Below are positions 23,347 through 28,936 of a DNA stretch of 64,000 bases, piece after piece. The DNA comes from Rhabdothermincola salaria. GTDB taxonomy: Bacteria > Actinomycetota > Acidimicrobiia > Acidimicrobiales > Acidimicrobilacustridaceae. The notes below the pieces were generated by a model. That model worked only from the letters and a program-made list of their open reading frames with translations. It made no database searches and was not told the DNA's origin. Where the stretch lies: positions 930,001 through 994,000 of the forward strand of contig NZ_JAJQXW010000001.1 of the NCBI RefSeq assembly GCF_021246445.1, in the 5' to 3' direction. Made by a program: the position numbers and the translations under genes. Within the stretch, counting starts at the first letter, position 1, and every line of letters starts with the position of its first letter.

Positions 23347-24552
23347 TCAGCCGGTGAAACGGGGCGTCACCACCACACCTGGCCCCGACGGGGTCGGCGC
23401 GGTGCTCGCCGGAGCGACCTCGGTGGTCGTGCTCGTCGTGCTCGTCGTGGTGGTGGTGCTGGCGGGGGGCGGCGGTGGCACCGGCAGCGGGAACGGGGCC
23501 AGGGCCAGACCCCACACCCCCTGGTAGGTGGCGAACACGTCGGCGAAGCCGTCGCTGAAGGGCGACGACAGGGCTCCGGCATCGGCGCCCGAGGCGATGA
23601 CCCAGGTCTCCAGCGACACGAGGGGGTCCTGGCCCCCGACCGCCCACTCGCCCAACGGCTCGCCGAGCGCCACCAGGGCCTGCAGGACCACGGCGGTCGA
23701 GTTCGGGTCGGCGCCGAAGCTCAACAGGTCGAAGGCGAAGCCGCCGCGGTGGGTGCCGTCGTCCTCCTGGAGCTGGCTGAAGAAGGTGCCCGGGTCGGTG
23801 TCGAGCAGCCCCAGCGCGTCCGTGGCCGCCAGGGCCTGCACCGCGAAGGAGGTGTTGTTGCTGTCCGGGCTCAGGTACTCGGGATCACCGACGACCACGC
23901 AGTCGGCCAGCCCGGCACCCTCCGGCGCCCGGTATCCCTGCCAGCCCCCGAGGGTCTCGGCCGGCCCTTCACCGGCACCGCACTGCTGGTCGGCGAGCCA
24001 TCCGAGCGAGCCGGCCGGGACGGTCTCGCCGGCCGCGACCAGGCCGAGCACGGCCAGCGACTGCAGCGTCGCGGACGAATAGGAGTCGGGGACACCGAAC
24101 AGGCCGGTCTCGGATACCTCGTAGGTGGCCAGCGTCCGCCCGACGAGATCGGTGCCGGGTGACCCGAAGGCCCGGGGGTCGCGCTCGGTGGCGACGGCCA
24201 GCATGGTGAGGTAGCCGAGTCGACCCGGGTTGTCGACGCCCCCCACCACGGCGTAGTCGTCGACACGGGCCTCCAGGTAGCCCATGGCGGCGTCGAGCGC
24301 CTCGGGCTGCGTGCCGGTGGTGGCCAACGACAAGGCCACGTTCACCGTCCAGCTCACGGAGGGCACGCCGGGGTCGTAGGGGTTCTCCACCGACCCGTCG
24401 GGACCCACGAGGCCGGCCAACCAGGCGGTGGCCGGCCCGGCCGCCGGCGACGACGCCGAGGTGGGGCTGGGCACGACCAGCGCGCCGAGCACGGCGGCGA
24501 TCGTGACGACGACCACCAAGAGGCGTCGTCGGGTCGGGTGCAACAGGGTCAT
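23347..24552 (-). CDS. Secreted prenyltransferase/squalene-cyclase-like alpha-barrel protein under B12 riboswitch
   Basis: A 401-residue exported protein. An N-terminal signal peptide (RRRLLVVVVTIAAVLGALVV, then PSPTSASS) is followed by repeats of the alpha/alpha-toroid type, in which blocks such as SYSSATLQSLAVLGLVAAG and NNTSFAVQALAATDALGLL recur. It ends with a Pro-rich and Thr/Ser-rich tail (TTTTTSTTSTTTEV) like a wall-spanning linker. The fold is shared with animal intrinsic factor/transcobalamin and squalene cyclases, but no catalytic DxDD motif is seen. A cobalamin riboswitch lies upstream on the same strand, which argues for a corrinoid-related role such as surface binding of B12. That role is inference. 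Confidence 0.78.
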   Translation of the reverse strand: MTLLHPTRRRLLVVVVTIAAVLGALVVPSPTSASSPAAGPATAWLAGLVGPDGSVENPYDPGVPSVSWTVNVALSLATTGTQPEALDAAMGYLEARVDDYAVVGGVDNPGRLGYLTMLAVATERDPRAFGSPGTDLVGRTLATYEVSETGLFGVPDSYSSATLQSLAVLGLVAAGETVPAGSLGWLADQQCGAGEGPAETLGGWQGYRAPEGAGLADCVVVGDPEYLSPDSNNTSFAVQALAATDALGLLDTDPGTFFSQLQEDDGTHRGGFAFDLLSFGADPNSTAVVLQALVALGEPLGEWAVGGQDPLVSLETWVIASGADAGALSSPFSDGFADVFATYQGVWGLALAPFPLPVPPPPPASTTTTTSTTSTTTEVAPASTAPTPSGPGVVVTPRFTG

Positions 24553-24679
24553 GGGGATCCTCGATCGGTCGGGGCGGACGAGACGCCTCCCCCGCTCCCC
24601 CACGCTCGGCCCGCTCGACCGACTCGCAGATTCCCGGGCTCGGCACCGCAGTCCGCGACGGTGCATGCAGAGCTCTCGT

Positions 24680-24790
24680 GACCGGTCAGGTGATCCGACT
24701 CGCCGAGGGTCACCCCTCGACACACGGTTGCGGGACAGCGCCGGACTCTCACCGGACTTCCCCTCACCGGGCACGTGTTCGTGTAGCGCT
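24680..24790 (-). ncRNA. Cobalamin (B12) riboswitch
   Basis: Read on the minus strand, this leader contains the hallmark blocks of the cobalamin riboswitch core: GTGCCCGGTGAGGGGAAGTC, then GGTGAGAGTCCGGCGCTG, then the highly conserved TCCCGCAACCGTGTG, and finally AGTCGGATCACCTGACC for the closing region. It is about 130 bases upstream of the 24552 start. A further inverted repeat (GCACCG ... CGGTGC, + strand 24642-24664) lies between it and the gene and may be the expression platform. Binding of adenosylcobalamin normally lowers expression. Ends are approximate. Confidence 0.93.
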
Positions 24791-24895: not shown

Positions 24896-25693
24896 ATGGG
24901 CGACCACACCACGAACGACGAGCTCTTCGACGAACGCAAGCCGCTGCTCTACACCCCGGCGACCTTCGACGACCCCGCCGCCGAGCGGCGCCACCGCCAG
25001 GAGCGCCTCGCCGCCGCCTTCCGCCTCTTCGGCCGGTTTGGCTTCGGGGAGGGCGTGGCCGGGCACATCACGGTGCGCGACCCCGAGTTCGACGACCGCT
25101 TCTGGCTCAACCCCTTCGGCATGGACTTCCGGCTGATCCGCACCTCGGACCTGGTGTGCGTCGACCACGAGGGGCGGATCGTCCACGGCGACCACGCCAT
25201 CAACCAGGCGGCGTTCGCCATCCACTCCCAGGTGCACGCCGCCCGTCCCGACGTGGTGGCCGCCGCCCACACCCACTCCGTCCACGGCAAGGCCTTCTCG
25301 TCACTCGGTCGCCTGCTCGACCCGATCACCCAGGACGCGTGCGCCTTCTACGGCGACCACGTGCTGTTCGACGACTTCACCGGCGTCGTGCTCGACCCCA
25401 TGGAGGGCAAGCGCATCGCGGCCGCCCTCGGTGACCACAAGGCCGCCATCCTGCGCAACCACGGGCTGCTCACCGTCGGCCATTCCGTCGACGAGGCAGC
25501 GTGGTGGTTCATCACCATGGAGCGCACCTGTCAGGCCCAGCTGCTGGCCATGGCCGCCGGCGACCCCATCTCGATCGACGCCGACGCCGCCGCCCTCACC
25601 CAGACCCAGGTTGGCGGTCACTTCGCCGGCTGGTTCTCCTTCCAGCCCCTCCACGAGGTGATCGTGCGAGAGCAGCCCGACCTGCTCGACTGA
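24896..25693 (+). CDS. Class II aldolase/adducin-family protein
   Basis: A 265-residue protein of the class II aldolase/adducin fold. EGVAGHITVRDPEFDDRFWL and AAAHTHSVHGKAFSSLG carry the metal-binding His-x-His pair, and AILRNHGLLTVGHSVDEAAW the third His. The N-terminal extension and the WFSFQPLHEVIVREQPDLLD end are typical of uncharacterised adducin-like proteins. Reaction unknown; the family includes fuculose-phosphate aldolase and decarboxylases. The start is the ATG at 24896, divergent from the B12 riboswitch. Confidence 0.87.
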   Translation: MGDHTTNDELFDERKPLLYTPATFDDPAAERRHRQERLAAAFRLFGRFGFGEGVAGHITVRDPEFDDRFWLNPFGMDFRLIRTSDLVCVDHEGRIVHGDHAINQAAFAIHSQVHAARPDVVAAAHTHSVHGKAFSSLGRLLDPITQDACAFYGDHVLFDDFTGVVLDPMEGKRIAAALGDHKAAILRNHGLLTVGHSVDEAAWWFITMERTCQAQLLAMAAGDPISIDADAAALTQTQVGGHFAGWFSFQPLHEVIVREQPDLLD

Positions 25694-25775
25694 CGCCGCC
25701 CACCGGCGCCCGCGCGGTCACCGGTCGACGCTTCGGGGGTTGTACCCTCGTCGCACAACCGACGCCGACCACCGC

Positions 25776-25970
25776 GTGCGGGAGAGACCCGGTCGCGGCC
25801 CTCGGGCCACGGCCGGGCGCCGAAGGAGCAACCGCCCCGGAAACTCTCAGGCACCCGTACCGCACGCACCAGGCAACTCTGGAGAGCAGCCTCGCGAGGG
25901 GCTCACCGACGGGGAAGGTCACGACGCCCACGGGCGCCGGGCGAAAACTCTCAGGTCCAACGACAGAGCG
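25776..25970 (+). ncRNA. Tandem glycine riboswitch
   Basis: Two glycine aptamers in a row. The first (about 25776-25867) begins GCGGGAGAGACCC, has CGCCGAAGGAGCAA and ends with AAACTCTCAGGCACC. The second (about 25873-25970) begins CTCTGGAGAGCAG, has GACGGGGAAGGTC and ends with AAACTCTCAGGTCCAACGAC. Both show the conserved GGAGAG and AAACTCTCAGG elements. It lies about 50 bases before gcvP and should switch on glycine cleavage when glycine is abundant. Confidence 0.95.
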
Positions 25971-26020
25971 GGGTCCCCCACCCGATCCGGCGCGCCCGCC
26001 GGCACCGAGAGGACCCGACC

Positions 26021-28936
26021 GTGACCGACGCCCCACCCCCCACCGGCCTCCGCCTGAGCGACCTCGACGACGCCCGCGCCTTCGTGGACCGCCACGTCGG
26101 GCCCGACGCCGGCGACGTGGCCACCATGCTCGAGCAGCTGGGCCTCGAGTCGCTCGACGCCCTCCTCGACGCCGTGGTGCCCTCGTCGATCCGCGACGAC
26201 GCCCCGTTGCAGCTGCCCCCGGCGCGCTCCGAGCCCGAGGTGACCGCCGCCCTCCGGACCCTGGCCGACGCCAACACCGTGCGCACCTCCCTCATCGGCA
26301 CGGGCTGGTACGCCACCGTGACGCCCCCGGTCATCCGCCGCAACGTGCTCGAGAACCCGGCCTGGTACACCGCCTACACGCCCTACCAGCCCGAGATCAG
26401 CCAGGGCCGCCTCGAGGCGCTGCTCACGTACCAGACCATGGTCTGCGACCTCACCGGCACCGAGCTCACCAATGCGTCGATGCTCGACGAGGCGACCGCC
26501 GCGGCCGAGGGCATGGCGCTCGTGCACCGGGTGAACCCCAAGGCCGGCTCGGTGTTCGTGGTCGACCCCGACACCCACCCCCAGACCGTCTCGGTGGTGC
26601 AGACCCGGGCCGAGCCGCTCGGGCTCGAGGTCGTGGTCGCCGACCCGGCCGCACCGCTGCCCGACGGCACCTTCGGTGTCCTGGTCTCCCACCCGGGCTC
26701 CAGCGGAGAGCTCCGTCCGCTGGAGCCGGTCATCGCCGCGGCCCACGAGGCCGGAGCGCTGGTCGTCGTCGCCACCGACCTGCTGGCCTGCTGTGTGATG
26801 ACCCCGCCCGGAGAGCTGGGGGCCGACGTCGTGGTCGGCTCCTCCCAGCGCTTCGGTGTGCCCATGGGGTTCGGGGGCCCGAGCGCCGGCTTCCTGGCCA
26901 CCCGGGAGTCCTACAAGCGCACCCTGCCCGGCCGGCTGGTGGGGGTGTCGGTCGACGCCGCCGGTCGTCCGGCCTACCGGCTGGCCCTGCAGACCCGTGA
27001 ACAGCACATCCGCCGCGAGAAGGCCACGTCGAACATCTGCACCGCCCAGGTGCTGCTCGCCGTCATGGCCGGGATGTACGCCGTCTGGCACGGCCCCGAG
27101 GGCCTGGCCCGGATCGCCACCCGGGTGCACCGCCTCACCAGCGTCCTGGCCGCCGGCCTCCGGACGGCCGGCGCCGACGTCGTCACCACCGCCTTCTTCG
27201 ACACCCTCACCGTGCGGGTCCCGGGCCGGGCCTCCAGCGTGCTGACGGCCGCCCGGGACCTCGACCTCGAGCTGAGGTCGATCGACGACGACCACGTCGG
27301 GCTCAGCCTCGACGAGACCTCGACCATCGCGACCGTCGAGGCGGTCTGGGCTGCCTTCGGTGTCACCGACGCCCCGGACGTCACGGCCGTCGATGCCGCC
27401 ACCGCCGATGCGCTCCCCACCGAGCAACGCCGTACCAGCGAGTTCTGCACCCACCCGGTCTTCCACACCCATCGCAGCGAGACCGAGATGCTGCGCTACC
27501 TGCGCCGGTTGGCCGACGCCGACCTGGCCCTCGACCGGGCCATGATCCCCCTCGGCTCGTGCACCATGAAGCTCAACGCCACCACCGAGATGGAACCCAT
27601 CTCCTGGCCCGGCTTCGCCGACCTGCACCCCTACGCCCCCGCCACCGACGCCCAGGGCTACCGCACCCTCACCGACGACCTCGAGCGCTGGTTGTGCGAG
27701 GTCACCGGGTACGACGCCGTCTCGCTGCAGCCCAACGCCGGCTCCCAGGGCGAGTTCGCCGGTCTGCTGGCCATCCGGGCCTGGCACCGCAGCCGGGGCG
27801 AGGAGCACCGCGACGTGTGCCTCATCCCCGCCTCGGCCCACGGCACCAACGCCGCCAGCGCCGCCATGGCCGGCATGCGCGTGGCCGTCGTGGCCTGCGA
27901 CACCGACGGCAACGTCGATCTCGACGACCTCCGCACCGTCCTCGCCACCCACGCCGACCGGGTGGCCGCCCTCATGGTCACCTACCCGTCGACCCACGGC
28001 GTGTTCGAGGAGGCCATCGGTGACATCTGCGCAGCCGTCCACGACGCCGGCGGCCAGGTCTACCTCGACGGGGCCAACCTCAACGCCCTGGTCGGCGTGG
28101 CCAAGCCCGGCCGGTTCGGCGCCGACGTGAGCCACCTCAACCTCCACAAGACGTTCTGCATCCCCCACGGCGGCGGCGGTCCCGGCGTGGGGCCGGTGGC
28201 GGTCCGCTCCCACCTGGCGCCGTTCCTGCCGTCACACCCCGTGGTCGCCGCCGCCGGGCCGACCGGAACCGACGGGCACGACGCACCCATCGGCGCGGTG
28301 TCGGCCGCCCCGTGGGGGTCGGCCGGGATCCTGCCCATCCCCTGGGCCTACGTGGCCCTCATGGGTCCCGACGGCCTGCGCCACGCCACTGCGGTGGCCA
28401 TCCTGAGCGCCAACTACGTGGCCCGACGCCTCGGCGAGGCCTACCCCATCCTCTACAGCGGTCGCCACGGCCTGGTGGCCCACGAGTGCATCCTCGACCT
28501 GCGACCCATCACCAAGGCCACCGGCATCACCGTCGACGACGTGGCCAAGCGCCTGATCGACTACGGCTTCCACGCGCCGACCATGTCGTTCCCGGTGGCC
28601 GGCACGTTGATGGTCGAGAGCACCGAGAGCGAGAGCCTGCTCGAGCTCGACCGCTTCTGCGACGCCATGCTCGCCATCCGCGCCGAGATCGAGCAGGTGG
28701 CCTCGGGGGCGTGGCCGGCCGACGACAACCCACTGCTCAACGCCCCGCACCCGGCCGCCGACGTGGCCGACGACGAGTGGACCCACCCCTACCCGCGTCG
28801 CCTGGCGGGATGGCCCGCCGGCGGCACCGCTCGCCTGGGGAAGTACTGGCCGCCGGTGAGCCGGATCGACGGCGCCTACGGAGATCGCAACGTGGTGTGC
28901 TCGTGCCCACCGGTGGAGGCCTTCGCCGACGTCTGA
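26021..28936 (+). CDS. gcvP: Glycine dehydrogenase (decarboxylating), P-protein
   Basis: A 971-residue P-protein of the long, single-chain type. It decarboxylates glycine and passes the aminomethyl group to lipoyl-GcvH. The PLP Lys is in [20 protein letters not shown] (about Lys710). N-terminal FVDRHVGPD and the Gly-rich HPGSSGEL segment fit the paired domains. The GTG start at 26021 follows the tandem riboswitch. Its T-protein partner is convergent at 28967-30076 and the H-protein is at 34092-34472, so the system is split over three transcripts. Confidence 0.96.

Follow-up and report, generated by a model that had tools for sequence, protein, structure and literature searches.

A riboswitch-controlled secreted toroid protein of Rhabdothermincola salaria as the probable half of a two-piece, transcobalamin-like corrinoid receptor

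A 64,000-nucleotide stretch of the Rhabdothermincola salaria genome (the window) carries on its minus strand, at 23347..24552, a gene that we call alpha. Its 401-aa product is assigned as a secreted alpha/alpha-toroid protein on the basis of its translation, its homologs and a match to the NCBIfam model NF053823. A signal peptide region with an approximate end covers residues 1-34 (24451..24552, minus), and the one N-terminal hydrophobic segment (residues 11-29) supports the signal peptide named in the initial annotation of this DNA. A hydrophobic N-terminus is common to the aligned alpha homologs. The toroid domain follows at residues 34-355 (23488..24453, minus), delimited by an AlphaFold2 model, a structure match, alignments and a motif scan. 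The rest consists of a Pro/Thr/Ser-rich linker at residues 356-396 (23365..23487, minus), recognized from its sequence and low pLDDT, and a P-R-F-T-G tail at the C-terminus (23350..23364, minus), a putative surface-sorting tag picked out by conservation and genome-wide enrichment. Nearby, a class II aldolase-like gene (24896-25693) separates the alpha gene from a tandem glycine riboswitch (25769-25976), which lies upstream of a gcvP-like gene (26021-28936). A glycine riboswitch is kept near the alpha gene in many genomes of the same family.

The 5′ leader of alpha contains an AdoCbl (cobalamin) riboswitch aptamer (24635..24788, minus). The Rfam covariance model RF01482 matches over its full length (1-149) at 24788-24635 on the minus strand with 52.6 bits (E 8.6e-7), above its gathering score of 50, and RF00174 scores 30.1 bits on the same 24635-24788 stretch. 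A cobalamin riboswitch upstream of a secreted protein, as first proposed for this locus, is thus borne out. From the riboswitch to the alpha ATG at 24552 there are 83 nt, and a GAGGA 5 nt before the ATG (24558..24562, minus) is the likely ribosome-binding site. Local RNA folding of the leader was uninformative (z 1.03), and an expression platform was not discerned by it. The cobalamin and AdoCbl Rfam models find two distinct sites in the whole 3.9 Mb genome, one in the alpha leader and the other at G000:C1:1812771-1812893. Across the family, a cobalamin riboswitch match lies directly upstream of the alpha gene, on the same strand, wherever the available sequence extends about 400 nt or more in front of the gene. 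Some of these matches fall below the gathering score, and the genes with shorter upstream sequence lie at contig ends. Since the genome holds only two such sites and every sufficiently covered alpha gene of the family has a match, the link between riboswitch and alpha is not due to chance.

The family is here taken as Microthrixaceae (Actinobacteriota, Acidimicrobiales), its named relatives being Candidatus Microthrix and Microthrixaceae. Alpha homologs occur in 33 of the 99 relatives searched. Close homologs are present in 31 of 37 Microthrixaceae genomes and are rare and weak elsewhere in the order, and remoter ones occur in Streptomyces, Lapillicoccus, Frankiaceae and other Actinobacteria. 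The contig scan for alpha relatives used the closer homolog set as the query, because the broader alignment was too diverse; no relative was found among the viral contigs searched. Gln190, Cys191 and Cys218 are invariant in alignments of the alpha family. A Pfam search with the alpha protein gave no useful family match. In NCBIfam, the protein matches the SCO2321 family (NF053823) in two stretches with 61.5 bits against a cut-off of 300, which makes it by sequence a distant homolog of that family, below the membership cut-off.

The AlphaFold2 model of the alpha family (m6d40c4081340) is an alpha/alpha toroid, and most of residues 40-355 have a pLDDT of about 98. In VIA-align, human intrinsic factor in complex with cobalamin (2pmv_A) matches the model through its alpha domain with Z 20.5 and an rmsd of 2.8 Å over 238 aa, as expected from the earlier suggestion that the protein resembles animal B12 carriers. 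The same model aligns to squalene-hopene cyclase with Z 23.6 and to Rab geranylgeranyltransferase with Z of about 21, and the alpha-family profile finds squalene-hopene cyclase in the PDB at 5.6e-22, in agreement with the helical repeats of squalene-cyclase and prenyltransferase type that had been read from the sequence. Because cyclases and prenyltransferases have the toroid as well and give slightly higher scores, the fold of alpha is not in itself enough to establish B12 binding. We nonetheless find it extremely unlikely that the toroid is an enzyme (a terpene cyclase, a prenyltransferase or a glycosidase-like protein) that is B12-regulated by happenstance. Squalene-hopene cyclases are its top matches both by structure and by sequence profile, but a motif scan found neither DxDD, the class II cyclase motif, nor DDxxD in alpha, just as initially noted, and DxDD appears in just 2 of 32 alpha homologs. 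The protein is also secreted, and across the phylum its gene lies with genes for a beta-domain protein and for an ECF importer, as described below.

The second cobalamin riboswitch of the R. salaria genome heads a partner operon at G000:C1:1807686-1812893. First after the riboswitch is the gene of a secreted protein, here called beta, that has a transmembrane segment at its C-terminus. It is followed by the genes for EcfT (439 aa), EcfA (542 aa) and, in the S position, a membrane protein of 325 aa. EcfT is encoded by the single CbiQ-type gene of the genome, and EcfA has two ATPase domains (tandem ABC_tran). The predicted ECF-S protein has about six hydrophobic segments and a conserved operon position, and no Pfam match. 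The absence of other B12 genes reported for the alpha locus therefore holds for its immediate neighborhood, where none adjoin alpha, but not for the genome. The R. salaria beta protein is a SCO2322-family homolog (NF040672, 64 bits, E 1.9e-17), scoring below the curated cut-off of 85. Beta occurs in 33 of 37 Microthrixaceae genomes, where it co-occurs with alpha, and is rare and weak elsewhere in the order. A riboswitch accompanies 16-17 of 18 beta genes. About 1 kb past the end of the beta-ECF operon (EcfS ends at L034:2687) lies a gene for a CarH-like regulator with an HTH and a B12-binding domain (L034:705-1610).

The beta family was modelled on a Streptomyces avicenniae member (L110:4065-4523) rather than on the R. 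salaria protein, which is tied to the modelled family by a profile comparison (E 5.4e-33) and a profile search. Beta domains of haptocorrin, intrinsic factor and transcobalamin make up 14 of the 15 top structural matches of this model (Z 9.5-10.4), among them the beta domain of transcobalamin in complex with cyanocobalamin (5np4). The remaining one of the 15 is the Ruminococcus protein 3u7z, and the next match drops to Z 6.2. In terms of predicted structure, the transcobalamin/intrinsic-factor beta domain is the best match to the beta-family fold. This relation was not detected by Pfam, which gave no useful family for 22 beta proteins and 10 beta domains. Antibody light chains that came up in a PDB sequence search with the beta profile aligned mostly to a low-complexity tail and were set aside as noise.

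The host seems to depend on external B12. No match to CbiC/CobH, which acts in B12 synthesis, came up in the 98% complete genome, and two methylmalonyl-CoA mutase genes are present. Together these indicate that R. salaria needs B12 and cannot make it; the auxotrophy is probable, CbiC being the one biosynthesis gene checked. The only FecCD-type permease of the genome was considered as BtuC and dropped, because its locus (L170:4166-8850, with FecCD, substrate-binding and ATPase genes) holds a heme oxygenase. Heme uptake is the likelier role of this FecCD, and the locus is a probable heme uptake locus. The annotation of CbiQ as a cobalt transport protein, which the T subunit matches, and the title of the beta-fold relative 3u7z (putative metal binding protein) raise another reading, in which the substrate of the ECF system is cobalt or some other metal, with alpha and beta as accessory metal-binding proteins. 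We regard this as very unlikely, since with no CbiC found cobalt for B12 synthesis seems unneeded and both accessory proteins match cobalamin-carrier domains.

Outside Microthrixaceae, alpha and beta genes are adjacent in 19 loci. ECF genes follow in 13 of these 19, making a single cluster with alpha and beta. The association of alpha homologs with ECF transport genes, which the initial annotation proposed to look for, is thus found. Upstream of most of the non-family clusters there is a riboswitch match that reaches no more than the gathering score, or else just the cobalamin core motif. Checked across the Microthrixaceae alpha genes and these outside loci, alpha homologs are mostly riboswitch-linked. 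Two outcomes that the initial annotation named as refuting, a fold unlike the toroid and homologs mostly without riboswitches, were therefore not seen. In S. avicenniae, a single ORF (L110:1905-7895) codes for a beta domain, additional repeats and an alpha domain that finishes in an LPxTG-like sequence. This ORF is by its sequence a natural fusion of the alpha and beta halves. CRISPR-like repeats were also seen near it. In Microthrixaceae, the alpha gene has moved away from the beta-ECF genes and has kept its own riboswitch.

Alpha was originally taken to be a stand-alone factor. In that case it would bind corrinoid alone, displayed on the wall or released, and the beta-ECF operon would act independently. 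The separation of alpha from the beta-ECF operon in Microthrixaceae, its own riboswitch and a distant alpha-homolog locus (L043) with no beta nearby all fit such independence. Alpha and beta are, however, adjacent or fused outside Microthrixaceae, and animal carriers sandwich the ligand between both domains (PMC1796856). We therefore consider a stand-alone alpha unlikely. Most likely it is one half of a two-gene receptor, with its beta partner under the second riboswitch.

The R. salaria alpha ends in VVVTPRFTG, with nothing after PRFTG. The Thr/Ser wall linker proposed earlier is present as a Thr/Ser/Pro linker from about residue 356, but the protein ends in PRFTG-COOH, not LPXTG, and lacks the LPXTG-TM-basic form of tail. 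A P-x-[FY]-T-G end is common to almost all Microthrixaceae alpha homologs. Searched as a DNA pattern, PxFTG or PxYTG followed by a stop occurs at 20 sites in the R. salaria genome and at 0 in a reversed control. These sites are the ends of about 20 otherwise unrelated proteins, including a trypsin-like protease, a lipase-like protein, a peptidase, and Gly-rich and repeat proteins (sites L047-L066), with a signal peptide visible wherever the start lay in the examined stretch. In 36 other Microthrixaceae genomes the pattern occurs 512 times, against 26 in the control. Most other Actinobacteriota families sampled show it at about control level, G041 being an exception. Alpha homologs elsewhere have LPxTG plus a transmembrane segment (L118, L119, L121, L127) or SLH domains at the tail position, and this exchange of anchors among homologs suggests a surface-sorting role for PxFTG. 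PxFTG-COOH is possibly an undescribed surface-sorting signal; the open-licence literature searched held nothing relevant on a signal of this kind in the family. If real, it would be a new protein-sorting signal.

That alpha is a secreted, B12-regulated factor with the predicted fold of the intrinsic-factor alpha domain and a putative role in corrinoid capture is well supported. The capture role follows from the fold, the riboswitch linkage and the operon linkage of homologs to ECF and beta genes. Its other half and an importer are under the second B12 riboswitch, and the two halves probably serve to scavenge extracellular B12. Taking these data together, there is a good likelihood that Microthrixaceae have a transcobalamin-like corrinoid receptor that feeds an ECF importer and consists of two pieces, alpha being one of them. 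When cobalamin is scarce, the riboswitch would permit alpha expression, as known AdoCbl riboswitches suggest. Alpha would then be exported and retained on the cell surface or in the wall through the linker and the PxFTG tail. It would join beta, which is tethered to the membrane, and the two would grip a corrinoid between the opening of the toroid and the beta-grasp domain, a step suggested by the folds, the operon linkage and the likeness to intrinsic factor and transcobalamin. Possibly the toroid acts at the wall and the beta domain at the membrane. Uptake of the corrinoid would finally fall to the ECF transporter of the beta operon (T, A and predicted S). A more specific version is tentative, and we would not presume it correct: a split transcobalamin of Actinobacteria, with its toroid on the surface and its beta domain tethered to the membrane, that closes on the corrinoid only when these halves meet and hands it to the ECF importer. 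In Microthrixaceae, the halves would come from separate riboswitch-controlled loci, and the toroid would be displayed by PxFTG-COOH, a new kind of sorting tag in place of the LPXTG or SLH anchors of homologs.

The proposed receptor is like animal intrinsic factor, transcobalamin and haptocorrin in being secreted and in combining a toroid with a beta-grasp-type beta domain, the predicted folds of which match. It differs from them in several ways: the R. salaria halves are two proteins from two loci, with no beta domain in the alpha polypeptide, control is by riboswitch, the partner is a predicted ECF importer and not an endocytic receptor, and alpha and beta of the R. salaria type have no Pfam-level sequence match.

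The initial annotation also suggested an undescribed route of cobalamin capture. The general idea was already predicted in 2007, mainly for Firmicutes (PMC1796856). Burroughs et al. (2007) predicted that bacterial proteins with a toroid and an SLBB domain of transcobalamin beta type scavenge B12, in operons with CbiO/CbiQ-like genes and usually in hosts without key B12 biosynthesis enzymes (PMC1796856). That transcobalamin-like SLBB clade comprised low-GC Gram-positives, planctomycetes and some euryarchaea, the toroid-SLBB proteins were fusions, and riboswitches go unmentioned in the paper (PMC1796856). The R. salaria system shares the secreted toroid and beta parts, the CbiO/CbiQ-like genes and the proposed B12 scavenging, and differs in belonging to Actinobacteria and in having separate polypeptides from split loci with one riboswitch each. 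Compared with the literature searched, what appears new is the actinobacterial version, the division between separate genes and loci, each locus with its own riboswitch, and the structural relation of SCO2322-type proteins to the transcobalamin beta domain, none of which was found in open-licence papers.

The SCO2321 and SCO2322 families (NF053823 and NF040672) likewise have relatives of alpha and beta in an operon with ECF genes. Among the open-licence literature, no paper on the function of SCO2321 or SCO2322 was found. Extracellular B12 capture by Gram-positive bacteria is poorly known, and the toroid, beta, ECF and riboswitch components described here make a concrete candidate system. Because the system is widespread in Actinobacteria, including Streptomyces, genetics should be possible. 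The ECF-type import that we propose resembles that of ECF-CbrT, to which, to our knowledge, no extracellular carrier belongs. ECF-CbrT of Lactobacillus delbrueckii has established ECF-type cobalamin import (PMC5997447). In B12-auxotrophic acI Actinobacteria, an ECF module behind a cobalamin riboswitch has been proposed as a cobalamin transporter (PMC5301498); riboswitch-controlled ECF genes are thus a shared feature, and unlike here, toroid or transcobalamin-like components are not mentioned there. The surface capture of B12 that we propose is also like that of BtuG and BtuH. The folds of these two proteins differ from the toroid and beta-domain folds. BtuG and BtuH of Bacteroides are surface B12-binding Gram-negative lipoproteins that work with BtuB (PMC6143338, PMC10404256).

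The 2007 work also proposed a bacterial origin for the B12 carriers of animals (PMC1796856). Our results bear on this proposal, as the halves are separate here and the order is swapped in some lineages. Unlike the R. salaria alpha, several high-scoring SCO2321-type toroids fit the alpha profile with their halves swapped. In Frankiaceae, it is the halves of the beta domain that stand in reverse order. Judged by profile order and sequence, the toroid (L159, L160, L161, L130, L136, L162) and the beta domain (L118, L119, L121) each appear to have been circularly permuted in different actinobacterial lineages.
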